Origin: Crambe crambe
Taxonomy: Eukaryota; Porifera; Demospongiae; Poecilosclerida; Crambeidae
NCBI GenBank assembly: GCA_963924555.1
Contig: OZ004594.1
Location: 3,007,563 to 3,071,562, forward strand
DNA: 64,000 nucleotides
Direction: 5' to 3'
The first letter of the stretch is position 1. Every line of letters starts with the position of its first letter. The notes under the pieces were generated by a model, which was not told the origin of the DNA, made no database searches, and saw nothing but the letters and a program-made list of their open reading frames with translations. Positions 12,804-64,000 of this stretch are shown piece by piece. The position numbers were made by a program, and so were the translations under genes.

Positions 12804-15800
12804 CTACACATACTGAAAGAGTGAGATTGTTTTGAGTCTGTTGCAGAGCTGACCATATGTGGCCCCTTCCTTGGAGGACCACTTCTTCAGCACGAGGAGG
12901 GCTCGGTCTTCCTCTTCTGTCTTCATTTCTGTCTTCACTTCTTTCATCTCCTCACTGGTCAGGGAGAGAAGGCAGGCCAGGGACGACCACTTGGATCCTA
13001 CCACTCCAGCAAATAACTCCAGAAACTCAACATCAGGTGTAATGGTTTGAAGCTTTGTGTCAAGCAGCTTTTTCTGGAGCTGAATGTGGTCACCTGCAGG
13101 ACAAAAATTGTGATCTTCCGCTTCAACTAGCTAAAGTTAACATTCACTTACTGTATTTCTCTTCAATCTCATTAGCTAGGGCTCCCCAGTTGATCTTCCT
13201 CAGTGCCTCCACTAGGTGCCACCAGCATGGAGGGTCCAGGGAGGAGTTCATCCACTTCCTCACCAGTTCGGTCCTCTGTCCACTTGTATCAAGAAGATGG
13301 TCCCTCTTTATGGCCTCAAGAACACTTTGGGGGATGTTGAGATGGAGACCAAGGACAAATAAATCTGCAACTATGTTTTGGAGATAACAAAGAACAAGAT
13401 TAATTGCGACTGGGAAATAACTATTCCAATGAGTGAGTTTGCGCAACCATAGTAACATAGAACGCTTCATTTTCTTTTTTCCTGTTTTACTGATGACTGC
13501 TTCCTCCCCCTTGGAAGATATCAGGACCTTTTCTACTTCATTCATGACGAAGAAGTTGTCCTCACTGAGGTAGTCATCCTGTTGTGTGGAGTCAAGCAGA
13601 AAGAACTGAGGTCTGATGGAGTGGCAGAACTCTTTCATGGTCTCCATCACGCAACTAACTATGCTATTGAAGACACTAATGCAATTTTCTACTGCATCTG
13701 GTTCACTTCTGGTGATGATCACCACTCCAGGACCCTTATTGACGTTCACCATCTCCACCATGCACTCCACCCCCTCTTCCATTAGCCAGTGCACACCAGT
13801 CGTCCACATGCTACAGCGACGCTGGAATTGCCTATCTTCTTCTCGAGGAGCAGTGAGAGTAAACTTAAATATTATTCTGAGGAGAAGGACATGAAGGAAG
13901 CGTGGGGGGAAGTAGTCATAAGGATCAGTGCACTGTGCAAGCCACCCAATACTGTAGCTGTCAGGAGGTGTGGTCCATGACACTTCACTCTTATCTGCAC
14001 TACAGAGAGCAGGAAAGAACAAGAAAGACTGGGGACTGGATGTAGTGTGCTGTGGAGTGGAAAGAAACAGTCCTATGTCTTCCTGTTTGATTTCCTGACA
14101 GTATTGAAGATGAATAAGACACTCCTTAGTGATATATGGAGGAAGGATTTCTTGAAGGAGGTCTTCAGGAATGATTCCAATGTTAAGAGATGCAAGCTCA
14201 CTCATTTGTTGAATAGCATCCTCAGAAAACAGGGTTTTATGAACTTCATTAGTAAGTTTAGATGTTTTTAATGTTATGTGGTAATCATGTTTAGTCCTGT
14301 CTCCTATTAGTAATAAAATACCAACCTCATGGAGCTCATGCAGTATGGGGTGTAATAATTCAGCTTTATTGGGAAGGTGTACCCCAGTGTCCTCTATGTG
14401 GGATACTAATGTACTGACAGAACAAGCAGTGACATTGCTGAAATCTTTCTCCAATAACCCTAAAAGAGTGCTTGCTTCAAAAGACAATCGATAGGAATGA
14501 GACTTACCTGTTAGACTAATAAGTTGCTCCTGGACCTCACTGATCTCTTTGGATCCTGGCTTACAGCAATCCAACTGAAAATATACAGTGTTTTGACCCA
14601 GTCTAGTGATCACTGAGTATTTTTTAAAAAGGATTTCAAAAAATTTACTCTTTTGGATTAGATTTTCTTTGCTCATTAGATCTGAGTGGCTCCCTATTAC
14701 AATAAGGGAAGGTTTGTTCTTGAATTTCTGGTGTTGTATGAATGCAGACCAATAGAGCAACATATTCTCAATAGCTAAGTTATCTTCTCTCAAATCAATC
14801 ACAATAATGAATATATTGTCACCCTTACTTGACGAGGCAAGATTCTCAAGTATAGCAGCATGTGAGGAGTAGTACTCAGGGTCTCCAGCAAAGTCATAGA
14901 ACTGGACTCTCCCATAGTGTTTACTGGTATAAATACTAGGGACTATACCAGCAGTGTGAGGGGGTACAGTGGATTCAGATACTCTACTCAAGGATTTTAG
15001 AAAACCTTCTCTTTTAAGTGATTCGATGAGGGAGCTCTTCCCAGCACCAGGATTACCAATGATAAATAACCTTGTTATATGTTGTGCACCTGAGTACTTC
15101 TTCTTTGCACGCTCTTGCATGCCATGATAGTCAACCAGTGTTTTATCTCGATTCTGTTTCATGTACTCATTAATTAGTAATTTAGCACCACCTTTTGCTA
15201 AGTCCTTTGGAGTCTTTCCTGAATTATTTCTTATCAGAATTGGAGCATTTTTTTGCAGTAATACCTCAACACATTTAGTATGGCCAAGAGCTGAACTAAT
15301 ATGAAGGGGAGTGTTACCATAATTGTCTAATACTAAGGGGGACATGAATTTATCAATCATTAAAAATATAACCTCTTCTTTATCAGCCAATGCTGCAACA
15401 TGGAGTGGTGTGTTATTCTCATCATCCCTTGCATCAATATCAGCCTTGTAGACTTGTACCAGAGTTTGAATTAGGTTAACATTACCTACCTTGCATGCTT
15501 CATGTAACAAAGATTGACCCAATCCAACTTTGGCATTGATATCACAATCCATCTCATTAATTAAAAACAATGCAACATCTTTTTCCCCAAACAATGCTGC
15601 CACATGGAATGGTGTGTTACTATTATCATCCCTAGTATTTATATCAGCCTTGTGGTCTCGTATCAGAATTTGAACTAGGCTAACATCACCTCCATTGCAT
15701 GCTGAATGTAACAAAGAACGACCTTTATAACCTTTGATATTAATATCACAACTCACCTCATTAATAAAAAACAATGCAACCTCTTTTTTCCCACATAATG

Positions 15801-18800
15801 CTGCCACATGGAGTGGTGTGTTATTTTGATCATCCCTAGCATTGATATCAGCGTTGTGGTCTCGTATCAGAGTTTGAACTAGGCTAACATTACCTCCCTT
15901 GCATGCAATATGTAATAATGATTGACCTTTATAACCTTTGACATTAATGTCACAACCCACCTCATTAATTAAAAACAATGCAACCTCTTTTTCCCCAAAC
16001 AATGCTGCCACGTGGAGTGGTGTGTTATTATTATAATCCCTAGCATTGATATCAGCCTTGTGGTCTTGTATCAGAATCAAACTTTGAAGTACATGAACAT
16101 TGCCAATTGAACATATTTTATGCAGTAAAGGATAACCTCTGAAATCATAATAACAATTCACGTTATTGATTAAATAAATTACAACCTCTTTTTTTCTTGC
16201 CACTTGTATCGGTGTTTTATCTTGATCATCTCTAGCATTGATATCAGCCTTGTGGTCTCGTATCAAAGTTTGAACTAGGTTAACATTACCTCCAATGCAA
16301 GCTGAATGTAACAAAGATTGACCTGAATTACCTTTGACATTAATGTCACAACCCACCTCATTAATTAAAAACAATGCAACCTCTTTTTTCCCAAAATATG
16401 CTTCCCCACATAATGCTGCCACATGGAGTGGTGTGTTATCTTCATCATCCCTAGCATTGATATCAGCCTTGTAGTCTTTTATCAGAGTTTGAACTAGGCT
16501 AACATTACCTCCTTTGCATACTTTATGTAGCAAAGACTGACCTAAATGACCTTTGATGTTAATATCACAACCCACCTCATTAATTAAAAACAATGCAACC
16601 TCTTTTTCCCCACACAATGCTGCCACATGGAGTGGTGTGCTATTTTGATCATCCCTAGCATTGATATCAGCCTTGTGGTCTCGTATCAAAGTTTGAACTA
16701 GGTTAACATTACCTCCAATGCAAGCTGAATGTAACAAAGATTGACCTGAATTACCTTTGACATTAATATCACAACCCACCTCATTAATTAAAAACAATGC
16801 AACCTCTTTTTTCCCACAATATGCTTCCCCACATAATGCTGCCACATGGAGTGGTGTGTTATCTTCATCATCCCTAGCATTGATATCAGCCTTGTAGTCT
16901 TTTATCAGAGTTTCAACTAGGCTAACATTACCTCCTTTGCATACTTTATGTAGCAAAGACTGACCTAAACGACCTTTGATGTTAATATCACAACCCACCT
17001 CATTAATTAAAAACAATGCAACCTCTTTTTCCCCACACAATGCTGCCACATGGAGTGGTGTGCTATTTTGATCATCCCTAGCATTGATATCAGCCTTGTG
17101 GTCTCGTATCAAAGTTTGAACTAGGTTAACATTACCTCCAATGCAAGCTGAATGTAACAAAGATTGACCTGAATTACCTTTGACATTAATATCACAACCC
17201 ACCTCATTAATTAAAAACAATGCAACCTCTTTTTCCCCACAATATGCTTCCCCACATAATGCTGCCACATGGAGTGGTGTGTTATCTTCATCATCCCTAG
17301 CATTGATATCAGCCTTGTAGTCTTTTATCAGAGTTTCAACTAGGCTAACATTACCTCCTTTGCATACTTTATGTAGCAAAGACTGACCTAAACGACCTTT
17401 GATGTTAATATCACAACCCACTTCATTAATTAAAAAAAATGCAACCTCTTTTTTCCCACACAATGCTGCCACATGGAGTGGTGTGCTATTTTGATCATCC
17501 CTAGCATTGATATCAGCCTTGTGGTCTCGTATCAAAGTTTGAACTAGGTTAACATTACCTCCAATGCAAGCTGAATGTAACAAAGATTGACCTGAATTAC
17601 CTTTGACATTGTCACAACCTACCTCATTAATTAAAAACAATGCAACCTTTTTTTTCCCAAAATATGCTTCCCCACATAATGCTGCCACATGGAGTGGTGT
17701 GTTATCTTCATCATCCCTAGCATTGATATCAGCCTTGTAGTCTTTTATCAGAGTTTGAACTAGGCTAACATTACCTCCTTTGCATACTTTATGTAGCAAA
17801 GACTGACCTAAATGACCTTTGATGTTAATATCACAACCCACCTCATTAATTAAAAACAATGCAACCTCTTTTTCCCCACACAATGCTGCCACATGGAGTG
17901 GTGTGTTATCTTCATCATCCCTAGCATTGATATCAGCCTTGTAGTCTTTTATCAGAGTTTGAACTAGGCTAACATTACCTCCTTTGCATACTTTATGTAG
18001 CAAAGACTGACCTAAATGACATTTGATGTTAATATCACAACCCACCTCATTAATTAAAAACAATGCAACCTCTTTTTCCCCACACAATGCTGCCACATGG
18101 AGTGGTGTGTTATTTTGATCATCCCTAGCATTGATATCAGCCTTGTGGTCTCGTATCAGAGTTTGAACTAGGCTAACATCACCTCCAATACATGCTGAAT
18201 GAAACAAAGAACGACCTAAATAACTTTTGATATTAATATCACAACCCAAATCATTAATTAAAAACAATGCAACCTCTTTTTTCCCACATAATGCTGCCAC
18301 ATGGAGTGGTGTGTTATTTTGATCATCCCTAGCATTGATATCAGCCTTGTGGTCTCGTATCAGAGTTTGAACTAGGCTAACATTACCTCCATTGCATGCA
18401 GTATGTAATAAAGACCGACCTTTATAACCTTTGATATTAATGTCACTACCCACCTCGTTAATTAAAAACAATGCAACCTCTTTTTTCCCACTCAATGTTG
18501 CCACATGGAGTGGTGTGTCATTTTCATCATCCCTAGCATTGATATCAGCCTTGTGGTCTCGTATCAGAGTTTGAACTAGGCTAACATTACCTCCATTGCA
18601 TGCAGTATGTAATAAAGACCGACCTTTATAACCTTTGATATTAATGTCACTACCCACATCATTAATTAAAAACAATGCAACCTCTTTTTTCCCACTCAAT
18701 GTTGCCACATGGAGTGGTGTGTCATTTTCATCATCCCTAGCATTGATATCAGCCTTGTGGTCTCGTATCAGAGTTTGAACTAGGCTAACATTACCTCCAT

Positions 18801-19362
18801 TGCATGCAGTATGTAATAAAGACCGACCTTTATAACCTTTGATATTAATGTCACTACCCACATCATTAATTAAAAACAATGCAACCTCTTTTTTTCCACC
18901 CAATGCTGCCACATGGAGTGGTGTGTTATTATTATCATCCCTAGCATTGATATCAGCCTTGTGGTCTCGTATCAGAATTTGAACTAGGCTAACATTACCT
19001 CCTTTGCATGCCCAATGAAATAATGTTCTATTGTTTTTACTTTTGATATTTGAAGGACAGTGATACTCATTCAATAGAGTAAGCACCACATGCTCCCACC
19101 CATTCAAAGCAGCATCTATTAGTGGTATGCAACCATAAATATCCTTAAAGAGTACATCAGCATTGAAGTCAGATATCAGCACCTTCACTATATTTAAGTG
19201 ACCTTTAGCACAGGCATAATGCAGTGGAGTCTCCCCATTGGAGTCAGTACAGTTTACATTGTACTCACCACTTTGCAGTAATTCCCTGACCTTGTCCACA
19301 TCACCTGACTTTGCAGCTAGGTGGAGGGGAGTGACACCAGTGACTGAGGAAGTTGAGTCCAT
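12804..19362 (-). CDS. Gene B: ankyrin-Roc-COR-Death-Death protein, 2166 aa
   Basis: Model join(12804-13093, 13152-19362) on the minus strand. I chose the ATG at 19362 (MDSTSSVTGVTPLHLAAK) because it aligns with genes A and C; the frame is also open from an ATG at 19455. About 40 ankyrin repeats (residues 5 to about 1390) alternate two types as 68-residue pairs. A Roc-like GTPase follows: GNPGAGKSS P-loop at 1436, DFAGDPEYY switch II at about 1490, and GSHSDL in place of NKxD. A COR-like region and a first Death-like domain (about 1975-2070) come next. The 58-nt phase-1 intron (13094-13151, GTAAGTG...CTGCAG) precedes a second Death-like domain. Related proteins are intracellular GTP-controlled scaffolds; a sensor role is inferred. 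The stop may lie in an intron, because TTTCA is followed by GTATGT at the end of domain two. Confidence 0.85.
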
Positions 19363-19450
19363 AGCTTTTCTTATTGCTTCTTGTTTAGCCAGTATAATTA
19401 TAACTACAATGGGAGAGTTCAGTTGCCATAGAGATGACTTATAATCATAG

Positions 19451-19474
19451 GTCACATGGCATTACCATTTAAAG
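19451..19474 (-). promoter_or_regulatory. Candidate core promoter of gene B
   Basis: About 90-110 bases upstream of the gene B start the minus strand has a TTTAAA TATA-like site (19468-19473), then the CCATGTGACCTATGA element. Gene D has the same arrangement at 48813-48837. Its position and conservation suggest a promoter, but the two upstream regions are recent duplicates, so conservation is weak evidence. Confidence 0.3.
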
Positions 19475-19645
19475 TGTTGATGAATCTCTTTTGTCTCCAC
19501 TGCATGTGGTGCCACCCACGTAGCTAACTAGACAAAGACCACAAATGCTCCACACTCATTCCAAGTCCTCCACTGTGTACAGTGTACAATGATTCAGTTG
19601 TGCAACTAGAATTGTCATGGGACACCATAAAGCTAGGAGACGTAA

Positions 19646-19820
19646 CTATAATATTATGCATAGTTCATCTTTGGGGATATCAAACTCCTCCCCTTCATCG
19701 CCAGAGTCATCATCATCATCATCACCCCCATCACTATCATCTTTATTATCATCCATGACACCTTCAACATTCTTCTCTACATACTTGATCAGATCATCCA
19801 AATATGTCCACCAGAGTGAT
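19646..19820 (-). CDS. Candidate terminal exon with acidic tail (copy upstream of gene B)
   Basis: On the minus strand, a GTATGTAG acceptor is followed at 19820 by a 175-nt open segment that encodes SLWWTYLDDLIKYVEKNVEG, then an Asp/Glu/Gly-rich run, then EEFDIPKDELCIIL and a TAG at 19646-19648. It needs a donor with two bases carried over (phase 2), exactly what the second Death-domain exons would give (TTTCA before GTATGT). It may be the C-terminal exon of the next family gene upstream, or the end of a separate gene. The same exon lies at 49009-49183, and a decayed one at 29427-29572. Confidence 0.45.
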
Positions 19821-19987
19821 CTACATACAAAGAGATCGAGTCATATAAACATTACAACGTGGTTATGATTTCAGGTGAATAATCAAGATAACAACTAAAG
19901 CACTCTGGTTCACAATAGCGTAACCAATTTGGCAAACACTAAGTTGCTTGCTAGTGTAGGGCTTTGATCAATCGGTGTGGGATAAAA

Positions 19988-20018
19988 GTTCAGTGTGGTA
20001 AACACCACCACACTGAAC
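19988..20018. repeat. Perfect 11-bp hairpin
   Basis: GTTCAGTGTGG and CCACACTGAAC pair around a 9-base loop. An identical copy lies at 49351-49381. No function is evident. Confidence 0.6.
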
Positions 20019-20289
20019 TAGTTTCTAAGAAAACAACATTATGACTAGCTAGCTATGAACCATGCCTCAAAATTTAGACTTGATCACTTTGGACTGACTT
20101 AGTAGCATATAATATGTGTGTTAAGGCTGAAAATAGTAGTAACAGATGAGTGGTGTTACCACACCATAAATTTCCAGCATAATATACATACTTACAATGG
20201 AATTATAGGAAATGTGTTGCATCTGTGGAATGGAATAGCTACTCTAATGTGCCCATATTTTGCATGCAACTACTACTATGAGGTTAAGG

Positions 20290-20394
20290 GAACACAGTTA
20301 CATTTAGCCTTTACATACAACCAATCCAGAATTTGTATGTTAAACTGGCAGCCTCATATGGATAAATACATATAAGCTAAATGTAACTCTGTTC
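20290..20394. repeat. Imperfect inverted repeat, probable short MITE
   Basis: The ends GAACACAGTTACATTTAGC and GCTAAATGTAACTCTGTTC are near-complementary over about 19 bp. A copy is at 49642-49746, within the same segmental duplication. Confidence 0.45.
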
Positions 20395-20499
20395 TTTTTT
20401 AACTGCAAAAAATGGATAGCTAGTTCTAGACTTTGATAAAAGGACAGTGATCAAAAAAGCACTGGTTTTCTGGATCCATAATCACAGTCCAAGTCCAGT

Positions 20500-21340
20500 G
20501 AGTCCTGTACCATAGTGGTGGTACGTAGGGTGGTAGCAATTGCTGAAGTTATTGCAGCACACAGCAAGCTCCTCATTTGCCATACAGTGAAGAGAACTTC
20601 CAATGGTCATTGACAGTACATGCTGAGGGACATTTTTGGATGCTAGCAAGTGTGTACTCACAAACCTACATTAAACAAAAATTTTAAAATGTGAATACAT
20701 TAATTGCATTCCAATACTGAATGAATATCACATATTCCCATATGAATACTTTTGTGACCACACCCCATAGATCCAGTTCTACCTCACAGGGCCAGTCACT
20801 TGAGGTCAAGTAATGGAAGAGTGGCAGGGGGACTGGACTCCCTGGAACTCCCCTACGTAGTTCCTCTGCCTCTAGTTCCTCAGCCACTGCATATGAAGCA
20901 GAGTCCAAGCACCACCTGATCCACAGCTTTGTAATCACTACATACACAGGAATTGTAAGGATTATTAAAGGGACGTGCTATTAGCTTGCTTCAAGAGAGT
21001 ATTCCTAACACTGTCACTATAAATCATGACTCACTATTATTAATATTTAATAGTAGAACACTTACTCTCAATACTGTCATGACAACAGACGACATCACAC
21101 TCTTAAAGTGGGAATTTCTTAAAAGTTAGAGTCTCTTTCCTGAGGGATTATCTAGGAAGAGAGAGAGAGAGGAAGAAATTTAAAGATGATAGGAAAGTCA
21201 TAACGGTGTATTACCAAGTGCTCATTGCTCACCATGAATGAAAACTCATAATCAATGCTCTCCATAATTGTCTTCTTTGAAGTTGAGATTCAGAAGATAT
21301 GCACACCTTTGTCTTGATCACATGACGACTTCGAGGAAAA
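20500..21340 (-). repeat. Duplicated exon-like module (copy at 20.5-21.3 kb)
   Basis: On the minus strand this holds an open segment with ASYAVAEELEAEELRRGVPG (20947 down to about 20790, ending CCCTGTGAG before GT), a partial Cys-rich segment (20660-20500), and remnants of the CT-tract exon near 21160, which has a stop. It is sister to 7690-9205, 22371-23655 and 49800-50830. Confidence 0.45.
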
Positions 21341-21424
21341 GGTCAACACAAAAGGGATGTCTGTGTACGGTTCAAAAAAGTTCAGCAACAAGAGAGTGAA
21401 CTTCAGTCAAGTAACCCCTTACCC

Positions 21425-22079: not shown

Positions 22080-22096
22080 TATTCTTATTCTTATTC

Positions 22097-27326: not shown

Positions 27327-29413
27327 TAATACGAGACCACAAGGCTGATTTCAAAGCCACTGAAGTATGACACAACCTCTTGCTTCCCATTCAATGCTGC
27401 CAGTGTTCTTTTCAAGTTTAATAGCTATCAGCATTGTGGTCTTGTATCAGAATTTTGACAAGTTTAACCGCATTACATCCACTGTAGGCTTGATAATCAT
27501 AGCAAAGATCTACATTTGCTATGAAAAATATGTATGTGTGGCACTTCATTACCACACAATGCTGCCAAATGGAGGGGACTACATCCATTATCATCTTCAG
27601 CATGAACATTTGCTTGTATCAGAGATTTAACAAGACTCTAGCAAAATGCAATAACGATCTAGCTACCATAGCTACCTTTGATTTTAATAATGCAATCAAG
27701 CTTATTAATTAGAAGAAATTTAACCTTCTTTTTTCCCACATGGAGTGGTGTGTTTTCATCATCCTTAGCATTAATATCAGTCTTGTGGTCTCGTATCAGA
27801 GTTTGAACATTATCTCCACAATGACCTAATGTCACAACCCACCTCATTAATTAAAAACAATGCAACCTCTTTTTTCCCACCCAATGCTGCCACATGGAGT
27901 GGTGCATGTAACAAAGGTAGACTAATGACCTCTGAATTTTCCAAAATAGCACGTGCATATCAGTCTTATTCAAACTTTGATCACAAGGCTGATAATGCTA
28001 AGGATGATGGTGAAAAAAACACCATTCCATTATGTGATAATGAAGAGGCTGCATTGTACCTGATCGAAGATTTTTCTTCTTATATAAACATCAGGGATGC
28101 TTTTGGTAGAACTTTGTTATATAATGCATAATGTATGGTGGGGGTAATATCAGCCTGGTAAAATCATTGATACAAAAACACAAGGGTTCATCTGCTCCTT
28201 AACCATTAAATTGAAACTTACTACAGCTAATGATTGTTTTGAAATCCTGTTATTGGTTAGCTAGAGGTATAATGTATAGACAACAGAGGATTCAATCAGC
28301 TGACACCTATATAAACGAATGGGTTCCCACAGCAACCACACCTGATAAACCATCTACTACTTCACTTAGCCTCCATTGCATGCAGTATGTAGTAAAGACC
28401 AACCTTTACAACTTTCGATATCAATATTACTACCCACCTCATTAATTAAAAACAATGCAACCTTTCTTTCCCACCCGTGGAGTGTTGTGTTATTTGATCA
28501 TCCCTAGCATTGATATCAGCCTTGTGGTCTTGTATCAGAGTTCGAACTAGGCTAACATTACTTCCACTGCATGGTTTATGTAACAACAGGGGTGTATCCA
28601 CCACTCTGATTGGTCCGGTTTTCACCGGACCACTTTTATCCCACCTATGAACACTATGACTCAAGGATGCCTTAATCATTAATAGTACTTAATTTTCATT
28701 GAGCTAACTATTGATGCCAAAGAATCCATTTTGCAGCATTCACACTAGCATAGCTTTATAAAAAATGGTGCAGTGATAGCTAAAGGGTAAAGTGGGCATT
28801 GCCATCCAAAAATTTTCCACACACAAGCACACCGAACCACTCAAAATTCTGTGGATACACCCCTGAACAAAGACCACCTTTGACATTAATGTCACAACCC
28901 ACCATGCTGCCAAATGGAGTGGAGTGTTAATTTGATTATCCCTAACATTTGACATCAGCCTTGTGATCCTGTATCAGAGTTTCCCTGACATGCCTTGTGT
29001 ATCAAAGTCATACCAGAACTATCTTTGACATATTCAAACACATTAAAAAGAAATAAGGTAATATCTTCTATCTCATTCATGGCAGCCACATTAAGTGGAG
29101 TGTTATCTCCACTATCCTTAGCTTTTATATCAGCTTTATAATCTCTATCGAAGTTTGAACTAGATCCTTATTGTCTCCTATGAAAGGAAAGTGAATGATT
29201 TCTTACATTTGAAGGACAGTGATACTCATTCAATAGAGTAAACACCACGTGCTCCCACCCATTCAAAGCAGCATCTATTAATGAATGCAGTGGAGTCCTC
29301 CCATTGGAGTCAGTACAGTTTACATTATACTCAGTAATTCCCTGACCTTGTCCACATCACCTGACTGCAGCTAGGTGGAGGGTGACACCAGTGACTGAGG
29401 AAGTTGAGGCCAT
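27327..29413 (-). pseudogene. Scrambled ankyrin-family relic
   Basis: The 5' end is recognisable: an ATG at 29413 gives MASTSSVTGVTLHLAA, then a 2-base loss near 29366 breaks the frame. Below it lie pieces matching NGWEHVVLTLLNEYHC and, near 29160-29040, sequence closest to the second and third ankyrins of gene C. Many short deletions and stops follow. At about 27960-28190 an ankyrin fragment lies on the plus strand, inside otherwise minus-strand pieces. A hAT-like MITE interrupts the relic at 28587-28865. No GTPase or Death domain remains. Confidence 0.85.
28587..28865. mobile_element. hAT-like MITE inserted in the ankyrin relic, 5-bp TSD
   Basis: The 279-bp element begins CAGGGGTGTATCCAC and ends GTGGATACACCCCTG. 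AACAA is duplicated on both sides (28582-28586 and 28866-28870); removing the element and one copy restores the family consensus GTAACAAAGACC. The CAGGGGTG terminus is typical of hAT elements. There is no transposase. Confidence 0.85.
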
Positions 29414-46200: not shown

Positions 46201-48725
46201 CAACCCACATCATTAATTAAAAACAATGCAACCTCTTTTTTTCCACACAATGCTGCCACATGGAGTGGTGTGTTATTTTTATCATCCCCAGCATTGATAT
46301 CAGCCTTGTGGTCTCGTATCAGAGTTTGAACTAGGCTAACATTACCTCCATTGCATGCTGAATGTAACAAAGACCGACCTAAACTGTCTTTGATATTAAT
46401 ATCACAACCCACATCATTAATTAAAAACAATGCAACCTCTTTTTTTCCACACAATGCTGCCACATGGAGTGGTGTGTTATTTTTATCATCCCCAGCATTG
46501 ATATCAGCCTTGTGGTCTCGTATCAGAGTTTGAACTAGGCTAACATTACCTCCATAGCATGCATTATGTAACAAAGACCGACCTAGATTGCCTTTAACTT
46601 TAATATCACAGCCAATTTCATTAATTAAAAACAATGCAACCTCTTTTTTCCCACACAATGCTGCCACATGGAGTGGTGTGTTATTTTGATCATCACCAGC
46701 ATTGATATCAGCCTTGTGGTCTCGTATCAGAGTTTGAACTAGGCTAACATTACCTCCAATGCATGCTGAATGTAACAAAGACCGACCTAAACTGTCTTTG
46801 ATATTAATATCACAACCCACATCATTAATTAAAAACAATGCAACCTCTTTTTTTCCCCACAATGCTGCCACATGGAGTGGTGTGTTATTTTGATCATCCC
46901 TAGCATTGATATCAGCCTTGTGGTCTCGTATCAGAGTTTGAACTAGGCTAACATTACCTCCATAGCATGCATTATGTAACAAAGACCGACCTAGATTGCC
47001 TTTAACTTTAATATCACAGCCAATTTCATTAATTAAAAACAATGCAACCTCTTTTTTCCCACACCCTGCTGCCACATGGAGTGGTGTGTTATTTTGATCA
47101 TCACCAGCATTGATATCAGCCTTGTGGTCTCGTATCAGAGTTTGAACTAGGCTAACATTACCTCCAATGCATGCTGAATGTAACAAAGACCGACCTAAAC
47201 TGTCTTTGATATTAATATCACAACCCACATCATTAATTAAAAACAATGCAACCTCTTTTTTTCCCCACAATGCTGCCACATGGAGTGGTGTGTTATTTTG
47301 ATCATCCCTAGCATTGATATCAGCCTTGTGGTCTCGTATCAGAGTTTGAACTAGGCTAACATTACCTCCAATGCATGCTGAATGTAACAAAGACCGACCT
47401 AAACTGTCTTTGATATTAATATCACAACCCACATCATTAATTAAAAACAATGCAACCTCTTTTTTTCCACACAATGCTGCCACATGGAGTGGTGTGTTAT
47501 TTTCATCATCCCTAGCATTGATATCAGCCTTGTGGTCTCGTATCAGAGTTTGAACTAGGCTAACATTACCTCCAATGCATGCTGAATGTAACAAAGACCG
47601 ACCTAAACTGTCTTTGATATTAATATCACAACCCACATCATTAATTAAAAACAATGCAACCTCTTTTTTTCCACACAATGCTGCCACATGGAGTGGTGTG
47701 TTATTTTTATCATCCCCAGCATTGATATCAGCCTTGTGGTCTCGTATCAGAGTTTGAACTAGGCTAACATTACCTCCATAGCATGCATTATGTAACAAAG
47801 ACCGACCTAGATTGCCTTTAACTTTAATATCACAGCCAATTTCATTAATTAAAAACAATGCAACCTCTTTTTTCCCACACCCTGCTGCCACATGGAGTGG
47901 TGTGTTATTTTCATCATCCCTAGCATTGATATCAGCCTTGTGGTCTCGTATCAGAGTTTGAACTAGGCTAACATTACCTCCAATGCATGCTGAATGTAAC
48001 AAAGACCGACCTAAACTGTCTTTGATATTAATGTCACAACCCACCTCATTAATTAAAAACAATGCAACCTCTTTTCTCCCACACCCTGCTGCCACATGGA
48101 GTGGTGTGTTATTTTCATCATCCCCAGCATTGATATCAGCCTTGTGGTCTCGTATCAGAGTTTGAACTAGGCTAACATTACCTCCATTGCATGCTGAATG
48201 TAACAAAGACCGACCTAAACTGTCTTTGATATTAATGTCACAACCCACCTCATTAATTAAAAACAATGCAACCTCTTTTTTCCCACACAATGCTGCCACA
48301 TGGAGTGGTGTGTTATTTTCATCATCCCTAGCATTGATATCAGCCTTGTGGTCTCGTATCAGAGTTTGAACTAGGCTAACATTACCTCCTTTGCATGCCC
48401 AATGAAGTAATGTTTTATTGTCTTTACTTCTGATATTTGAAGGACAGTGATACTCATTCAATAGAGTAAGCACCACATGCTCCCACCCATTCAAAGCAGC
48501 ATGTATTAGTGGTATGCAACCAAAAACATCCTTAAAGAGTATATCAGCATTGAAGTGAGCTATCAGTACATTCACCATATCTAAGTCACCTTTAGCACAG
48601 GCATAATGCAGTGGAGTCTCCCCATAGTAGGCAGTACAGTTTACATTGTACTCACAACTTTTCAATAATATCCTGACCTTGTTCACATCACCTGACTCTG
48701 CAGCTAGGTGGAGGTATGAGTCCAT
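43291..48725 (-). CDS. Gene D: ankyrin-Roc-COR-Death-Death protein, about 1791 aa
   Basis: Model join(43291-43745, 43805-48725) on the minus strand. The ATG at 48725 gives MDSYLHLAAESGD; compared with gene B, the residues TSSVTGVTP are missing. An upstream in-frame ATG at 48818 also exists. About 28 ankyrin repeats in a very uniform array are followed by P-loop GNPGAGKSS at residue 1005, DFAGDPEYYSS, GSHSDL, a COR-like region and a first Death-like domain whose last 70 residues are almost identical to gene B. The 59-nt phase-1 intron (43746-43804, GTAAGT...CTGCAG) precedes the second Death-like domain. Unlike its relatives, the reading frame does not stop after LFQY but runs 60 more residues through a G-rich repeat (LHPLYPYSLYPYPLYP) to 43291. 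If GTATAA at this point works as a donor, that tail is intron. Confidence 0.8.
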
Positions 48726-49350: not shown

Positions 49351-49381
49351 GTTCAGTGTGGTAAACACCACCACACTGAAC
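49351..49381. repeat. Perfect 11-bp hairpin, duplicate of 19988-20018
   Basis: Same GTTCAGTGTGG/CCACACTGAAC stem and 9-base loop. Confidence 0.6.
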
Positions 49382-49641: not shown

Positions 49642-49746
49642 GAACACAGTTACATTTAGCCTTTACATACAACCAATCCAAAATTTGTATGTTAAACTGG
49701 CAGCCTCATATGGATAAATACATATAAGCTAAATGTAACTTTGTTC
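49642..49746. repeat. Imperfect inverted repeat, duplicate of 20290-20394
   Basis: The ends GAACACAGTTACATTTAGC and GCTAAATGTAACTTTGTTC pair. Confidence 0.4.
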
Positions 49747-49799
49747 TTTTTTAACTGCAAAAAATGGATAGCTAGTTATCAAAAAAGCACTGGTTTTCT

Positions 49800-52560: not shown

Positions 52561-52877
52561 TCAAGCAGTAACTATGTAACTCAGAAGAAGAACCCTGTGA
52601 ATATGGAACACAGTAATTGGTCACATGACAGAGGAGAATGGTCACATGACCACTTACCTGGAGAATTATTGCAAAGTATCTGGAGGAGAATGGTCACATG
52701 ACCATCCAGGGGAGGGAATGACCACATGACCACCTGGAGGAGGAGATTATAAAAATAAACAAGTAAAATGAGTCTACACTAACACTTACCAATTCCATTA
52801 GTGTGTGAAGTACTTGTGTTGTGCAGTTTCAATGGGAGGGAGCTAGTATATATAGCAACAGACTAATGATGGAATGA

Positions 52878-53165
52878 CTGTAGCCGGATAAAGAGTTCAA
52901 AATATTAACTGTAGCCAGGTAAAGAGTTCAAATATTAACTGTAGCCGGATAAAGAGTTCAAATATTAACTGTAGCCGGATAAAGAGTTCAAATATTAACT
53001 CTAGCTGGATAAAGAGTTCAAATATTAACTGTAGCCGGATAAAGAGTTCAAATATTAACTGTAGCCGGATAATGAGTTCGGTGGCCGGATAAGAACTTCC
53101 AAGTACTGTGGCCGGATCAAGTATTAACCGTGGCCGGATAAAGAGTTCAAATATTAACTTTGGCT
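52878..53165. repeat. 30-bp minisatellite, about 10 copies
   Basis: A second, shorter array in the same orientation, separated from the first by 0.3 kb of module sequence. Confidence 0.9.
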
Positions 53166-54645: not shown

Positions 54646-57600
54646 TTACACATACTGAAAGAGTGAGATTTTTTTGAGTCTGTTGCAGAGCTGACCATAT
54701 GTGGTCCCTTCTTTGGAGGACCACTTCTTCAGCATGAGAAGGGCTCGGTTTTCCTCTTCTGTCTTCACTTCTTCTATCTCCTCACTGGTCAGGGAGAGAA
54801 GGCAGGCCAAAGACGACCACTTGGATCCTACCACTCCAGCAAATAACTCCAGAAACTCAACATCAGGTGTAATAGTTTGAAGCTTTGGGTCAAGCAGCTT
54901 TTTCTGGAGTTGAATGTAGTCACCTGTAGGACAATGATATACTTCCACACATGAAATTGGAGTTAGCTCTTAAATTTAGCCACTCACCACATTCCTCTTC
55001 AATTTCATCTGCTATGGCTCTTTTACTAATCTTCTTCAGTGCCTCCACTAGGTGCCACCAGCATGGGAGGTCCTGAGAGGGGCTCATCCACTTCCTCACC
55101 AGTTCTCTCCTTTGTCTATCTACATCAGTGGGATACTGCACCTCTATGGCCTCAAGGACACTACTGGGGATATCAAGTTGGAGACCAAGATCAAAAAGCT
55201 CTTTAACTATAGCTTTGAGATGAGAGTAGACAGAGCTAAAGTCTATTTGGAATAGAGTATTCCAATGAGTGAGTGTGCACATCCATAGCAAATCAGAACG
55301 TTTTATCTCCCTCTTCCCTGATACGCTAACAACGATTTGTTTTTCTTCTGAAGATGTCAGGACTCTCTCCACATCATTCATGGTGAAGAGGTTGTCCTCA
55401 CTGAGGTAGTTGTCCTGTTGTGTGGAGTCAAGCAGGAAGAACTGAAGTTTGATGGAATGGCAGAAGTCTTTCATGGTCACCATCACACAACTAACTATGC
55501 TATTGAAGACACTAATGCAGTTATACGTGAAATCTCGTTCACATCTTATGATAACCATTACTCCCTTGTTGACATTCACCATCTTCAATATACACTCTGC
55601 CCCCTCCTCCATTCGCCAATGTATACCAGTCTTCCACATGGTGCAGCGACGTTGACAGTTATGCTTATAAAAAGGATCAGTTGAAGCTGCTTTAGCTTTT
55701 GCTGAAAGACGCACTTCAGCAGTGAGAGTGAACTTGAAGACTATTCTGAGGAGAAGGACATGAAGGAAGCGTGGGGGGAAGTAGTCATAAGGATCAGTGC
55801 ACTGTGCAAGCCACCCAATACTGTATCTGTCAGGAGGTGTGGTCCATGACTCGTCACTCTTGTCTACACTACATAGAGCAGGAAAGAACAAGAAAGACTG
55901 GGGACTAGATGAAGCGTCCTGTGGTGTGGAAAGGAACAGTCCTATATCTTTGTGCTTGATTTCTTGGCAGTACTGAAGATGAACAAGGCATTCCTTTGTG
56001 ATGTATGATGGTAAGAGCTTCTGGAGGATATTTTCAGGAATGATTCCAATATTGAGGGAAGGAACATATCCACGTTCACTCATTTTTTTAATATTTAGAA
56101 TTGCATCCTTAGAAAACATGGCTTTATGCACTCCATTAGTGAGTTGAGATATGTTTAATATTATGTGGTAATCATGCTTAGTTCTGTCTCCTATCAGTAA
56201 TAAAATACCAACCTCATGGAGCTCATGCAGTATGGGGTGTAATGATTCAGCTTTATTGGGAAGGTGTACCCCAGTGTCCTCTATGTGGGATACTAATGTA
56301 CTGACAGGACAAGCAGTGACATTGCTGAAATCTTTCTCCAATAATCCTAAAAGAATGCTTGCTTCAAAGGAAAGTTCATAGTGAGGTGATTTACAAGTTA
56401 GGTTTGTAAGTTTATTTTGGACCTCACTTATGTTTTTAGAACCTGGTTTACAGCAGTCTAGCATAAAATATGCAGTACTCTGCATCTCACTGGTATAGAG
56501 AAGTGATTTTAGAAATTCATTTTTTAGTGTTAAGTTTTCTTGAGTCACTAAATCTGAGTGACTCCCAATCACAATGAGGGATGGCTCATTTTTAAACTTC
56601 TGGTGTTTTAGGAATGTGAACCAATTGTGCAGTGTATTCTCAATAGCAGAATCATCTTCTCTTAAATTTGTCACTAAGATGAATATGTTATCACCATTTC
56701 TTGAGGAGGCAAGATTCTCAAGTATAGCAGCATGTGAGGAGTAGTACTCAGGGTCTCCGGCAAAGTCATAGAACTGGACTCTCCCATAGTGTTTACTGGT
56801 ATAAATACTAGGGACTATACCAGCAGTGTGAGGGGGTACAGTGGATTCAGACACTCTACTTAGGGATTTTAGAAAACCTTCCCTTTTAAGTGATTCAACA
56901 AGGGTACTCTTCCCTGCACCAGGATTACCAATGATAAATAACCTGGTTATAGGTTGTGCACCTGAGTACTTCTTCTTTGCATGCTCTTGCATGCCATGAT
57001 AGTCAACCAGTGTTTTATCTCGATTCTGTTTCATGTACTCATTAATTAGTAATTTAGCATCACCTTTTGCTAAGTCCTTTGGAGTCTTTCCTGAATTATT
57101 TCTTATCAAAATCGGAGCATTTTTTTGCAGTAATATCTCAACACATTTGGTATGGCCAAGAGATGAACAAATATGAAGGGGAGTATCACCATCATTGTCT
57201 AATACTAAAGGGGATGTGAATTTATCGACTAATAAAAGTATAATCTCTTCTTTACCTGCCAATGCTGCCACATGGAGTGGTGTGCTATTTTGATCATCCC
57301 TAGCATTGATATCAGCCTTGTGGTCTCGTATCAGAGTTTGAACTAGGCTAACATTACCTCCATTGCATGCAATATGTAATAAAGTCTGACCTTTATAACC
57401 TTTGATATTGATGTCACAACCCACCCCATTAATTAAAAACAATACAACCTCTTTTTTCCCACCCAATGCAGCCACATGGAGTGATGTGTTATTTTCATCA
57501 TCCCTATCATTGATATCAGCCTTGTGGTCTCGTATCAGAGTTTGAACTAGGCTAACACTACCTCCATTGCATGCAATATGTAATAAAGTCCGACCTTTAT

Positions 57601-60600
57601 AACCTTTGATATTGATGTCACTACCCACCGCATTAATTATAAACAATGCTACCTTTTTTTCCCCACAAAATGCTGCCACATGGAGTGGTGTGTTATCTTC
57701 ATCATCCCTATCATTGATATCAGCCTTGTGGTCTCGTATCAGAGTTTGAACTAGGCTAACACTACCTCCATTGCATGCAATATGTAATAAAGTCCGACCT
57801 TTATAACCTTTGATATTGATGTCACAACCCACCGCATTAATTAAAAACAATGCTACCTTTTTTTTCCCACCCAATGCTGCCACATGGAGTGGTGTGTTAT
57901 TTTCATCATCCCTAGCATTGATATCAGCCTTGTGGTCTCGTATCAGAGTTTGAACTAGGCTAACATTACCTCCATTGCATGCTGAATGTAACAAAGACCG
58001 ACATAAATAGCCTTTAACATTAATATCACAGCCCATTGCATTAATTAAAAACAATGCAACTTTTTTTTTTCCACAAAATTCTGCCACATGGAGTGGTGTG
58101 TCATTGTTATCATCCCTAGCATTGATATCAGCCTTGTGGTTTCGTATCAGAGTTTGAACTAGGCTAACATTACCTCCATAACATGCATTATGTAACAAAG
58201 ACCGACCAAAATTACCTTTAACATTGATATCACAGCCCATTTCATTAATTATAAACAATGCAACCTCTTTTTTCCCACCCAATGCTGCCACATGAAGTGG
58301 TGTGTTGTTTTCATCATCCCTAGCATTGATATCAGCCTTGTGGTCTCGTATCAGAGTTTTAACTAGGCTAAAGTTACCTCCATTGCATGCAATATGTAAT
58401 AAAGTCCAACCTTTATAACCTTTGATATTAATGTCACAACCCACCTCATTAATTAAAAACAATCCTACCTCTTTTTCCCCACAAAATGCTGCCACATGGA
58501 GTGGTGTGTCATTATTATCATCCCTAGCATTGATATCAGCCTTGTGGTATCGTATCAGAGTTTGGACTAGGCTAACACTACCTCCATTGCATGCAATATG
58601 TAATAAAGTCCGACCTTTATAACCTTTAACATTGATACAACAACCCACCTCATTAATTAAAAACAATGCAACCTCTTTTTTCCCACCCAATGCTGCCACT
58701 TGGAGTGGTGTGTTATTTTCATCATCCCTAGCATTGATATCAGCCTTGTGGTCTCGTATCAGAGTTTTAACTAGGCAAAAGTTACCTCCATTGCATGCAA
58801 TATGTAATAAAGTCCAACCTTTATAACCTTTGATATTAATGTCACAACCCACCTCATTAATTATAAACAATGCAACCTCTTTTTTCCCACCCAATGCTGC
58901 CACATGAAGTGGTGTGTTGTTTTCATCATCCCTAGCATTGATATCAGCCTTGTGGTCTCGTATCAGAGTTTTAACTAGGCTAAAGTTACCTCCATTGCAT
59001 GCAATATGTAATAAAGTCCAACCTTTATAACCTTTGATATTAATGTCACAACCCACCTCATTAATTGAAAACAATCCTACCTCTTTTTCCCCACAAAATG
59101 CTGCCACATGGAGTGGTGTGTTATTTTCATCATCCCTAGCATTGATATCAGCCTTATAGTCTTGTATCAGAGTTTGAACCAGGCTAACATTACCTCCTTT
59201 GCATGCTTTGTGTAACAAAGACCGACCAAAATGACCTTTGACATTAATGTCACAACCCACCTCATTAATTAAAAATAATACGATCTCTTTTTTCCCACAC
59301 AATGCTGCCACATGGAGTGGTGTGTTATTATTATCATCCCTAGCACTGATATCAGCCTTGTGGTCTTTTATCAGAGTTTGAACCAGGCTAATATTACCTC
59401 CTTTGCATGCTTTGTATAACAAAGACTGACCTAAACCACCTTTGATATTAATGTCACAACCCACCTCATTAATTAAAAACAATGCAACCTCTTTTTCCCC
59501 ATACAATGCTGCCACATGGAGTGGTGTGTTATTTTCATCATCCCTAGCATTGATATCAGCCTTGTGGTCTCGTATCAGAGTTTGAACTAGGCTAACATTA
59601 CCTCCATTGCATGCAATATGTAATAAAGTCCAACCTTTATAACCTTTAACATTGATACAACAACCCACTTCATTAATTAAAAACAATGCAACCTCTTTTT
59701 TCTCACCCAATGCTGCCACATGGAGTGGTGCGTTATTTTCATCATCCCTAGCATAGATATAAGCTTTGTGATCTCGTATCAGAATTTGAACTAGGCTAAC
59801 ATTACCTCCATTGCATGCAATATGTAATAAAGTCTGACCTTTATAACCTTTGATATTGATGTCACAACCCACATCATTAATCAAAAACAATGCTACCTCT
59901 TTTTTCCCACCCAATGCTGCCACATGGAGTGGTGTGTTATTTTCATCATCCCTAGCATTGATATCAGCCTTGTGGTATCGTATCAGAGTTTGAACTAGGC
60001 TAACATTACCTCCACTGCATGCAATATGTAATAAAGTCCGACCTTTATAACCTTTAACATTGATGTCACAACCCACCTCATTAATTAAAAACAATGCAAC
60101 CTCTTTTTTCCCACAAAATGCTGCCACTTGGAGTGGTGTGTTATTTTCATCATCCCTAGAATTGATATCAGCATTGTGGTCTCGTATCAGAGTTTGAACT
60201 AGGCTAACATCACCTCCAATACATGCATTATGTAATAAAGACTGACCGAAACTGCCTTTAACATTGATATCACAACCCACCTCATTAATTAAAAACAATG
60301 CAGCCTCTTTTTTCCCACCCAATGCTGCCACATGGAGTGGTGCGTTATTTTCATCATCCATAGCATTGATATAAGCTTTGTGATCTCGTATCAGAGTTTG
60401 AACTAGGCTAACATTACCTCCATTGCATGCATTATGTAATAAAGTCCGACCTTTATAACCTTTAACATTGATACAACAACCCACCTCATTAATTAAAAAC
60501 AATGCAACCTCTTTTTTCCCACCCAATGCTGCCACATGGAGTGGTGTGTTATTTTCATCATCCCGAGCACTGATATCAGCCTTGTAGTCTTGTATCAGAG

Positions 60601-63600
60601 TTTGAACTAGGATAACATTACCTCCATTGCATGCAATATGTAATAAAGTCCGACCTTTATAACCTTTAACATTGATACAACAACCCACCTCATTAATTAA
60701 AAACAATGCAACCTCTTTTTTCCCACCCAATGCTGCCACTTGGAGTGGTGTGTTATTTTCATCATCCCTAGCATTGATATCAGCCTTGTGGTCTCGTATC
60801 AGAGTTTGAACTAGGCTAACATTACCTCCATGACATGCATTATGTAATAAAGACTGACCGAAATTGCCTTTAACATTGATATCACAACCCACCTCATTAA
60901 TTAAAAACAATGCAACTTCTTTTTTCCCACCCAATGCTGCCACATGGAGTGGTGTGTCATTTTCATCATCCCTAGCATTGATATCAGCCTTGTAGTCTCG
61001 TATCAGAGTTTGAACTAGGCTAACATTACCTCTATTGCATGCAATATGTAATAAAGTCCGACCTTTATCAACTTTGATATCGATGTCACAACCCACCTCA
61101 TTAATTAAAAACAATCCTACCTCTTTTTTCCCACCCAATGCTGCCACATGGAGTGGTGTGTTATTTTCATCATCCCTAGCATTGATATCAGCCTTGTGGT
61201 CTCGTATCAGAGTTTGAACTAGGCTAACATTACCTCCATTGCATGCAATATGTAATAAAATCCGACCTTTATAACCTTTGATATTGATGTCACAACCCAC
61301 CTCATTAATCAAAAATAATGCTACCTCTTTTTTCCCACCCAATGCTGCCACATGGAGTGGTGTGTTATTTTCATCATCCCTAGCATTGATATCAGCCTTG
61401 TGATCTCGTATCAGAGTTTGAACTAGGCTAACATTACCTTCATTGCATGCAATATGTAATAAAGTCCAACCTTTATAACCTTTGATATTGATGTCACAAC
61501 CCACCTCATTAATCAAAAACAATGCTACCTCTTTTTTCCCACCCAATGTTGCCACATGGAGTGGTGTGTTATTTTCATCATCCCTAGCATTGATATCAAC
61601 CTTGTGATCTCGTATCAGAGTTTGAACTAGGCTAACATTACCTCCATTGCATGCAATATGTAATAAAGTCCGACCTTTATAACCTTTGATATTGATGTCA
61701 CAACCCACCTCATTAATCAAAAACAATGCTACCTCTTTTTTCCCACACAATGCTGCCACATGGAGTGGTGTGTTATTTTTATCATCCCTAGCATTGATAT
61801 CAGGCTTATAGTCTTGTATCAGAGTTTGAACCAGGCTAACATTACCTCCATTGCATGCAATATGTAATAAAGACTGACCTTTATAACCTTTGATATTGAT
61901 GTCACAACCCATGTCATTGATTAAAAATAATGCAACCTCTTTTTTCTCACTATATGCTGCCACATGGAGTGGTGTGTTATTTTTATCATCCCTAGCATTG
62001 ATATCAGCCTTATAGTCTTGTATCAGAGTTTGAACCAGGCTAACATTACCTCCTTTGCATGCTTTGTGTAACAAAGACCGACCAAAATGACCTTTGACAT
62101 TAATGTCACAACCCACCTCATTAATTAAAAATAATACGATCTCTTTTTTCCCACACAATGCTGCCACATGGAGTGGTGTGTTATTATTATCATCCCTAGC
62201 ACTGATATCAGCCTTGTGGTCTTTTATCAGAGTTTGAACCAGGCTAATATTACCTCCTTTGCATGCTTTGTATAACAAAGACTGACCTAAACCACCTTTG
62301 ATATTAATGTCACAACCCACCTCATTAATTAAAAACAATGCAACCTCTTTTTCCCCATACAATGCTGCCACATGGAGTGGTGTGTTTTTCTTATCATCCC
62401 TAGCATTGATATCAGCCTTGTGGTCTCGTATCAGAGTTTTAACTAGGCTAACATTACCTCCATTGCATGCTATATGTAACAATGACCGATCTTTATAGCC
62501 TTTGATATTAATGTCACAACCCACTTCATTTATTAAAAACAATGCTACCTCTTTTTTCCCACCCAATGCTGCCACATGGAGTGGTGTGTTATTTTCATCA
62601 TCCCTAGCATTGATATCAGCCTTGTGGTCTCGTATCAGAGTTTGAACTAGGCTAACATTACCTCCATAACATGCATTATGTAACAAAGACCGACCGAAAT
62701 TATCTTTAACATTGATATCACAACCCACCTCATTAATAAAAAACAATGCTACCTCTTTTTTCCCACCCAATGCTGCCACATGCAGTGGTGTGTTATTTTC
62801 ACCATCCCCAGCATTGATATCAGCCTTGTGGTCTTGTATCAGAGTTTGAACCAGGCTAACATTACCTCCATTGCATGCAATATGTAATAAAGTTTGACCT
62901 TTATAACCTTTGATATTAATATCACAACCCACCTCATTAATAAAAAACAATGCAACCTCTTTTTCCCCAACCAATGCTGCCACATGGAGTGGTGTATTAT
63001 TTTCATCATCCCTAGCATTGATATCAGCCTTGTGGTCTTGTATCAGAGTTTGAACCAGGCTAACATTACCTCCTTTGCATGCTGAATGTAATAAAGACCG
63101 ACCTAAATAACCTTTGACATTAATGTCACAACCCACCTCATTAATTAAAAATAATACAATCTCTTTTTTTCCACATAATGCTGCCACATGGAGTGGTGTG
63201 TTATTATTATCATCCCTAACATTGATATCAGCCCTGTGGTCTTGTATCAGAGTTTGAACCAGGCTAACATTACCTCCTTTGCATACTTTGTATAACAAAG
63301 ACCGACCTAAATGACCTTTGACATTAATATCACAACCCACCTCATTAATTAAAAATAATACAATCTCTTTTTTCCCACATAATGCTGCCACATGGAGTGG
63401 TGTGTTATTATTATCATCCCTAACATTGATATCAGCCTTGTGGTCTTTTATCAGAGTTTGAACCAGGCTAATATTACCTCCTTTGCATGCTTTGTATAAC
63501 AAAGACTGACCTAAACCACCTTTGATATTAATGTCACTACCCACCTCATTAATTATAAACAATGCAACCTCTTTTTTCCCACCCAATGCTGCCACATGAA

Positions 63601-64000
63601 GTGGTGTGTTGTTTTCATCATCCCTAGCATTGATATCAGCCTTGTGGTCTCGTATCAGAGTTCTAACTAGGCTAAAGTTACCTCCATTGCATGCAATATG
63701 TAATAAAGTCCAACCTTTATAACCTTTAATATTGATGTCACAACCCACCTCATTAATTAAAAACAATGCAACCTCTTTTTTCCCACAAAATGCTGCCACT
63801 TGGAGTGGTGTGTTATCTTCATCATCCCTAGAATTGATATCAGCATTGTGGTCTCGTATCAGAGTTTGAACTAGGCTAACATCACCTCCAATACATGCAT
63901 TATGTAATAAAGACTGACCGAAACTGCCTTTAACATTGATATCACAACCCACCTCATTAATTAAAAACAATGCAGCCTCTTTTTTCCCACCCAATGCTGC
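54646..64000 (-). CDS. Gene E: giant ankyrin-Roc-COR-Death-Death protein, 5' end outside window
   Basis: Model join(54646-54923, 54988-beyond 64000) on the minus strand, at least 3096 residues. The frame is open to the right edge in the middle of an ankyrin repeat, so the start is not seen. At least 68 ankyrin repeats precede a Roc-like GTPase with P-loop GNPGAGKST (Thr where the relatives have Ser), DFAGDPEYYSS and GSHSDL. The COR-like region has an insertion (AEVRLSAKAKAASTDPFYKH) before RRCTMW. The first Death-like domain ends at a 64-nt phase-1 intron (54924-54987, GTGAGT...CTACAG); the second ends LFQYV at 54646. The array shows no stop or frameshift over 7 kb. Large blocks inside it are near copies, for example 59200-59510 and 62080-62390. 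As in the relatives, GTATGT follows TTTCA at the 3' end. Confidence 0.85.

Follow-up and report, generated by a model that had tools for sequence, protein, structure and literature searches.

We identified a family of giant genes in the sponge Crambe crambe, four of which lie within one 64-kb stretch of its genome (the window, matched to G000:C17:3007563-3071562). All four share the same order: one long exon encodes an ankyrin array, a Roc GTPase domain, a COR-like region and a first Death domain (DD1), and a second one (DD2) follows on a short final exon. Our tentative reading, to which we give a probability of about 0.45, is that this is a kinase-less, DAPK1-like Roco family of intracellular sensor-scaffolds that trigger Death-domain assembly. 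It is carried by the domain order, the in-frame splice signals of DD2, the GTPase motifs, purifying selection on the core, the size of the expansion and the target-type variability of the ankyrins. In the mechanism that we propose, the long ankyrin array would be the binding surface, its variable positions facing the target. Target binding would alter the Roc-COR module in its nucleotide state or its dimer state, and this change might expose or cluster DD1 and DD2. The two domains could then seed a complex that includes FADD-like or other adaptors, with cell death or inflammation as the outcome. For these proteins we infer ligand binding, switching by GTP, assembly through the Death domains and a role in immunity or self/non-self recognition.

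Domains of the window genes

The Roc assignment, made from sequence, is firm. Pfam Roc exceeds its cut-off of 27 bits in all four window genes (27.9 to 34.2 bits, Table 1; gene 4 was scanned as far as the window reaches) and is matched at E<=1 in all 34 members of our family profile, which was built from 28 of the first 30 loci and six more. The profile itself matches the Roc domain of LRRK2 (E 3.3e-8). The GxxGxGKS, DFAGD and GSHSD motifs are present in each window gene, and G31, G34, G36, K37, D85, G88, H154 and D156 are invariant across the 34 members, so that the P-loop, DxxG and SHxD are conserved. On the basis of these motifs, the domain may bind and hydrolyse GTP and dimerise in a nucleotide-linked manner.

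DD2 passes the Pfam Death cut-off (22.6 bits) in the four genes, with 24.6 to 37.4 bits. The intron before it measures 58-64 nt in every window gene, has a GTRAGT donor and an AG acceptor and lies in phase 1; in gene 1 the splice joins ...EKYS-DHIQLQKK in frame. In all 32 loci with a rule-found donor this sits 76 nt past the same DD1 anchor, where L048, a locus that probably belongs to another sponge (see below), has GTAATT. An automatic test for donor plus acceptor was passed by 28 of 36 loci; the eight misses comprise L019, L025, L029 and L047, with a donor and no DD2 start by pattern, and L035, L043, L044 and L046, with no donor by rule. DD2-like sequence stands behind DD1 in 30 of the 30 loci read (its frame shortened in L031 and L033), and in L019, L021 and L024 it sits inside the long frame itself. 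Genome-wide, 78 of 85 scored candidates matched DD2, fragments and stray copies counted in. The DD2 frame of gene 3 (window 43291-43480, minus strand) runs about 60 residues beyond the SLFQYV end of genes 1, 2 and 4, via a repetitive stretch. Separately, a segment of about 615 bp that comprises the DD2 exon with its 3' flanking sequence occurs in four places, its identity with a C17 copy reaching 96.6%. Such segments are embedded in a repeat-rich element full of a palindromic motif at L052 (C16:2368500-2371800), L053 (C15:1549000-1551300) and L054 (C6:2576700-2579000), and look as if captured by a mobile or satellite element.

DD1 scores lower against Pfam. Pfam Death did not match it in genes 1-3 and gave 15.7 bits, below the cut-off, in gene 4. 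It was matched at E<=1 in 13 of the 34 members (best 8.6e-9), and in the genome scan the DD1 of the C15 copies passed the cut-off. The corresponding part of the family profile (positions 591-667) finds FADD Death domains (6aci_H) at E 6e-8 and PIDD at 0.0029, which marks DD1 as FADD-like.

Pfam COR had no match in the four genes. A first model, of the full Roc-COR-DD1 from the four window proteins, reached a predicted local distance difference test (pLDDT) score of 34 and was useless. Modelling a 188-residue piece of gene 3 with five alignment rows gave a pLDDT of 71, and the predicted winged helix, right behind Roc, aligns with COR-A of LRRK2 and LRRK1 over nearly its whole length. The preliminary description of this DNA, made by a model from the letters alone, had reported four intact genes with the order ankyrin, GTPase, COR-like and two Death domains and with the DFAGD and GSHSDL motifs. 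Its account of the genes is borne out, all four having many Pfam ankyrin repeats and a Roc and a DD2 that exceed the Pfam cut-offs; the COR-like part is weaker. Of the checks it had proposed, the profile searches recovered Ank, Roc and the Death fold of DD2 but neither COR nor, in the window genes, a DD1 above cut-off, and structure prediction succeeded for the shorter, COR-A-like piece only.

Expansion, constraint and ankyrin variability

Querying the genome with Roc-COR-DD1 gave 307 candidates, of which 66 were scored and all 66 matched. After one split locus had been merged these amount to at least 65 loci, four of which cover the query only partly; as the best candidates alone were scored, locus counts are lower bounds. 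Contigs C17 (2.86-3.21 Mb), C18 (5.25-5.59 Mb) and C15 (1.39-1.69 Mb) hold 18 loci each, and 11 lie elsewhere. In a tree of 35 sequences, three C15 copies, seven C18 copies and all C17 copies except L046 formed groups of their own; C1 copies were nested in the C17 group, C14 grouped with C6, and the second-species sequence fell among the family copies, with placement unsure for this sequence, L045 and L046. The family is thus much expanded and duplicates locally, as the preliminary description had supposed. The alternative named there, a single orthologue conserved in all animals, is not what this genome holds, and we rejected a single-gene reading on copy count.

The core is under purifying selection. 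Among the 19 C17 copies the median ratio of nonsynonymous to synonymous substitution rates (dN/dS) was 0.26 for Roc, 0.21 for COR-N, 0.39 for COR-C and 0.38 for DD1. In these four parts no pair exceeded 1; in the short pre-Roc stretch, 4 of 134 pairs did. Since the frames are so long and selection is purifying, a chance origin of the genes is excluded. A stop is present in 14 of the 66 matches; of the six such matches in L009-L038, four have it at the very end and two internally (L020, L030).

The same layout probably exists in a second sponge. L048, on JACERO010000092.1 of the Nitrosopumilus metagenome-assembled genome 'HM_N', encodes ankyrins, Roc, a COR-like region and DD1 at 50% identity, together with a DD2 exon; the Pfam cut-offs are exceeded by its ankyrins and DD2 and missed by its Roc, at 18.8 bits, and its DD1, at 17.4 bits. 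A thaumarchaeal symbiont genome has been reported from the sponge Hymedesmia methanophila (PMC7848895; here and below, papers are cited for the portions accessible to us). We infer that HM_N is this symbiont genome and that JACERO010000092.1 is sponge host DNA in a prokaryote record. A scan of viral contigs revealed no relative.

Elsewhere in the C. crambe genome at least 149 COR-A places exceed the cut-off (150 listed), mostly on C1, C3, C5, C8 and C11. No family locus begins within 5 kb of the 150 listed matches, so the genome has many further places of the Roco type. We fetched eight such loci: L001, L006 and L008 show LRR-Roc-COR-kinase frames by eye (LRR, leucine-rich repeat), and L002-L005 and L007 belong to another Roc-COR family. 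L002 (G000:C20:3831172-3836890; Pfam COR-A 69.5 bits) has paired Death matches downstream, at 3832967 and 3833457 and at 3836143 and 3836651, and is perhaps an independent double-Death layout. NACHT occupies at least 103 places (103 of 103 scored, from 232 candidates).

Each window gene carries dozens of Pfam ankyrin repeats (gene 4 counted to the window edge). They are organised as 204-bp double repeats, which are 67-93% alike inside an array. We sampled 191 units from genes 0-4 (gene 4 whole), 95 odd and 96 even, of which 72 and 83 distinct DNA units were used. Designed ankyrin repeat proteins (DARPins) have six randomised positions per internal repeat, which form the target-binding surface. 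For the units studied here we take the equivalent contact positions, in the register that we assumed, to be {2,3,5,13,14,34} of the 34-residue unit; with 33 instead of 34 the effect described below was stronger. Mean entropy was raised at these DARPin-type positions relative to elsewhere, both in odd (1.93 vs 0.88, P 0.0008) and in even repeats (1.71 vs 1.10, P 0.014), and the top-entropy positions were 10, 2, 13, 3 and 5 in odd and 14, 33, 3, 27 and 13 in even repeats. The ratio of nonsynonymous to synonymous differences per site (pN/pS), calculated over unit pairs that are not independent, was 1.25 (1.03-1.64) vs 0.58 for the rest in odd and 0.97 (0.84-1.19) vs 0.58 in even repeats. For pairs with <=12 differences it came to 1.85 (1.18-3.02) vs 0.56 and 1.41 (0.90-2.68) vs 0.28, and for pairs with <=8 differences to 1.46 (0.80-3.24) vs 0.78 and 1.38 (0.82-3.19) vs 0.27. 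Units of the same type were closer within than between genes for genes 3 and 4, but not for genes 0 and 2 or the even units of gene 1. The statistics are mixed: the variation fits diversification of a binding face, but it fits relaxed constraint too.

Coordinates and surroundings of the window genes

Coordinates are collected in Table 1, for which we chose the start codons of genes 1, 2 and 3; the whole frame of gene 4 spans 4065 residues in the genome and starts near 3074679. The two broken copies of the preliminary description both exist, as ankyrins only, and one of them (4096-6787) lies outside the stretch to which the cluster had been assigned. A Pfam scan of 4424-6787 matched ankyrins and neither Roc nor Death; further above-cut-off matches there (e.g. 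an A/B-hydrolase-like profile) fall on the ankyrins and look spurious.

Table 1. Features of the window, in window coordinates (aa, amino acids)
Feature	Position	Strand	Details
Decayed copy, ankyrins only	4096..6787	-	frame changes near 4.43-4.53 kb; no Roc/COR/DD match
Gene 1 block, segmental duplicate of gene 3 block 43474-50707, flank included	12810..21350	-	self-blastn 85.5% and 91.4%, two overlapping pieces
Gene 1 stop-to-stop frame	13144-19461	-	2105 aa, single exon
Gene 1 exon 1: ~42 ankyrin units by length, Roc, COR-like, DD1	13152..19362	-	2105-aa frame; Roc 27.9 bits; donor GTAAGT
Gene 1 ankyrins	15253-19332	-	
Gene 1 core	13147-15135	-	
Gene 1 exon 2: DD2	12804..13093	-	Pfam Death 30.9 bits; CAG acceptor, in frame, phase 1
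Decayed copy, N-terminal part and scattered ankyrin pieces only	27545..29413	-	
Gene 2 stop-to-stop frame	32373-37427	+	1684 aa, single exon
Gene 2 exon 1: ~30 ankyrin units by length, Roc, COR-like, DD1	32415..37413	+	1684-aa frame; Roc 34.2 bits; donor GTGAGT
Gene 2 Roc GTPase domain	35511..35900	+	Pfam Roc residues 1047-1176; LRRK2 Roc E 4.4e-6
Gene 2 COR-A-like winged-helix region	36072..36599	+	alignment to modelled gene 3 piece
Gene 2 DD1, FADD-like	37161..37412	+	phmmer FADD E ~0.5 (single sequence); family profile FADD E 6e-8
Gene 2 exon 2: DD2	37472..37755	+	Pfam Death 24.6 bits; 58-nt intron
Gene 3 stop-to-stop frame	43797-48824	-	1675 aa, single exon
Gene 3 exon 1: ~29 ankyrin units by length, Roc, COR-like, DD1	43805..48725	-	1675-aa frame; Roc 28.8 bits; donor GTAAGT
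Gene 3 Roc GTPase domain	45336..45725	-	Pfam Roc residues 1034-1163
Gene 3 COR-A-like region (piece modelled)	44610..45173	-	
Gene 3 exon 2: DD2, C-terminal end unlike other genes	43471..43745	-	Pfam Death 37.4 bits; tblastn
Gene 4 stop-to-stop frame	54920->64000	-	3026+ aa in window, leaves window
Gene 4 exon 1: ~99 ankyrin units by length (whole gene), Roc, COR-like, DD1; 5' end outside window	54988..64000	-	4065-aa genome frame; Roc 29.2 bits; Death 15.7 bits (below cut-off); donor in L025
Gene 4 exon 2: DD2	54646..54923	-	Pfam Death 32.9 bits; acceptor

Between the genes lies a 30-bp satellite (TTAACTGTAGCCGGATAAAGAGTTCAAATA type, either strand; window 10132-11043, 38612-40101, 41140-41503, 51962-52565 and 52877-53079), which may favour unequal crossing-over. 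Four related intergenic frames (window 8051-8302(+), 20684-20977(-), 22668-22955(-) and 49810-50325(-)) have the stretch LFHYLTSSDWPCEV in common; they had no Pfam match at E<=0.01 and are probably a dispersed repeat. The window also holds an (AG)n microsatellite of 249 bp with 99% matches (8443-8691). Outside the window, contig C119 (19,532 bp) of the assembly is mitochondrial: its COX1 is read through seven TGA codons, and an atp9-like frame lies at about 8.2 kb by eye. Mitochondrial atp9 is a mark of demosponges, which points to a demosponge as the probable host.

Known relatives, rival explanations and meaning

The closest known layout is that of DAPK1, of the third Roco group, in which ankyrins, ROC-COR and a Death domain follow one another (PMC12408332), without LRRs (PMC6337361). 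Ankyrins in the place of LRRs, as the preliminary description proposed for this cluster, are hence a feature that DAPK1 already has. DAPK1 itself carries a calmodulin-regulated kinase at its N-terminus, eight ankyrins and a single Death domain. The sponge family, in which we found no kinase, has two Death domains, about 29-99 ankyrins per window gene and at least 65 loci. The kinase was sought in the four window genes, in gene 4 as far as the window edge, and in 10 intergenic frames, a scan that does not reach short or far-off exons upstream. LRRK1 and LRRK2 resemble the family in the Roc domain, the predicted COR-A-like fold and, for LRRK2, ankyrin profile matches; they differ in that the window genes show no LRR or kinase match and carry Death domains instead.

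Expanded ROCO families are known from other lineages. Brown algae have 9-47 LRR-ROC-COR genes per species, candidate immune receptors with reported positive selection on the repeat surface (PMC11378527); according to a 2024 survey, this repertoire is larger than those known from other organisms up to that date. They share with our family the expansion, the variable repeats and a COR that is hard to detect, but their LRRs lie on separate, shuffled exons and they have no Death domains in the accessible account, while the sponge family has its ankyrins on a single giant exon. In Trichoplax, an early animal, ROC-COR genes number at least 17, and some of them carry death and CARD domains (PMC4104024); neither ankyrin arrays nor a comparable scale are mentioned in the accessible text. 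In sea anemones and Aplysia, ROCO domains are joined to TIR proteins (PMC5094078, PMC9334734). Sponge NLRs (NACHT-LRR with Death or CARD) are likewise expanded and partly clustered, and combine repeats, a nucleotide switch and a Death fold (PMC12909245); they use NACHT and LRR with Death at the other end, in contrast to the Roc and ankyrins described here. We rejected an NLR identity, because neither NACHT nor LRR was found: NACHT/NB-ARC were unmatched in the four window genes and absent among the 25 shown of the 44 families matched by the 34 members, and LRR had no match in the window genes. The rows for AAA_16 and nSTAND reflect the P-loop and, in member 1, stay below cut-off. Relative to DAPK1 the layout lacks the kinase and gains a second Death domain; expanded ROCOs as candidate receptors were already known from brown algae. 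Ankyrin- and Death-domain genes rise after exposure to microbial products in two sponges, with no tie to this family in the accessible text (PMC6208332). A description of the family was not found in the open-access papers searched for it.

The domain order of DAPK1 and the purifying selection on the C-terminal part would also suit expanded DAPK-like death or scaffold regulators that are not sensors, with ankyrins bound to fixed partners, cytoskeletal or regulatory, and Death domains that adjust apoptosis the way DAPK1 does. We consider this unlikely: no kinase match was obtained in the four window genes or the 10 chosen intergenic frames, and the number of loci, the length of the arrays and the raised variability of the target face are ill-suited to a fixed partner. 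A sceptic might instead see mostly duplication noise, with unstable tandem ankyrin arrays and gene conversion multiplying copies under relaxed constraint, many of them pseudogenes. The similarity of the 204-bp repeats, the mosaic pattern along the core (proportion of synonymous differences, pS, about 0.06 to 0.57 among the 19 C17 copies), the decayed copies in the window and the four partial loci all fit, yet the low dN/dS (0.21-0.39), the Roc-COR-DD1 uninterrupted in 28 of the 30 copies read, and DD2 splice signals preserved in diverged copies, probably in the second sponge too, make this improbable. Allorecognition, that is, self/non-self recognition among sponges by the same biochemistry instead of microbe sensing, would be in keeping with clustered, duplicating genes with diverse repeats; we noticed no membrane or extracellular part in the frames, to which no topology tool was applied, and hold it to be very unlikely. 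Least likely of all, in our opinion, is that these proteins are not Rocos, a Ras-like GTPase being followed by an unrelated winged-helix region. This would agree with the absence of a Pfam COR match in the four window genes, which also extends to the 25 shown of the 44 families matched by the 34 members, and with other winged-helix proteins reaching equal Z against the same model. Profile comparison also failed to make the COR part significant: hhalign aligned the Roc part alone to the LRR-Roc-COR-kinase family and gave 4% probability against the other Roc-COR family (COR alone <1%), and with a COR profile in hmmsearch a shuffled sequence outranked the best true one. On the other side stand the Roc scores, the nearly full-length alignment of the winged helix behind Roc with COR-A of LRRK2 and LRRK1, and the brown-algal ROCOs, in which profiles found COR in 18 of 111 (PMC11378527).

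Several observations weigh against the sensor-scaffold reading. The COR identity is the weaker part of the assignment, drawn as it is from a predicted fold and its position and not from sequence comparison. At switch II the window genes have Asp after DFAG (DFAGDPEYY) where LRRK2 has Arg; therefore, hydrolysis may be weak or differ. Internal stops interrupt two of the 30 copies read. The uneven pS along the core suggests gene conversion, which blurs every rate estimate. Permuting the position sets in the pN/pS comparison gave P<0.05 in 3 of 12 tests, all in even repeats, and values up to 0.31 in the others. Position 10, the most variable in odd repeats, lies outside the DARPin-type set, as do the highly variable positions 27 and 33. 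Finally, surface positions are expected to be highly variable in any ankyrin protein.

A bolder version of the sensor-scaffold reading, possible though doubtful, is that sponges have a second large intracellular receptor repertoire beside NACHT, built from giant natural DARPin-like ankyrin arrays, their target face diversified by repeat duplication and conversion, a Roc-COR switch and a double Death output. If so, with at least 149 further COR-A places, the Roco repertoire of this sponge would exceed the brown-algal range. Even if the proteins are not receptors, at least 65 loci and these COR-A places are high beside the published ROCO counts, as far as the accessible literature reports them. 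If they are sensors, early animals based their intracellular detection by repeats on two nucleotide-switch chassis, one with NACHT and one with Roc-COR, and the naturally varying ankyrin faces would be a ready data set for finding ligands. DAPK1 would then be the surviving cousin of a receptor-like architecture, which offers a testable idea of how its ROC-COR and its Death domain communicate.

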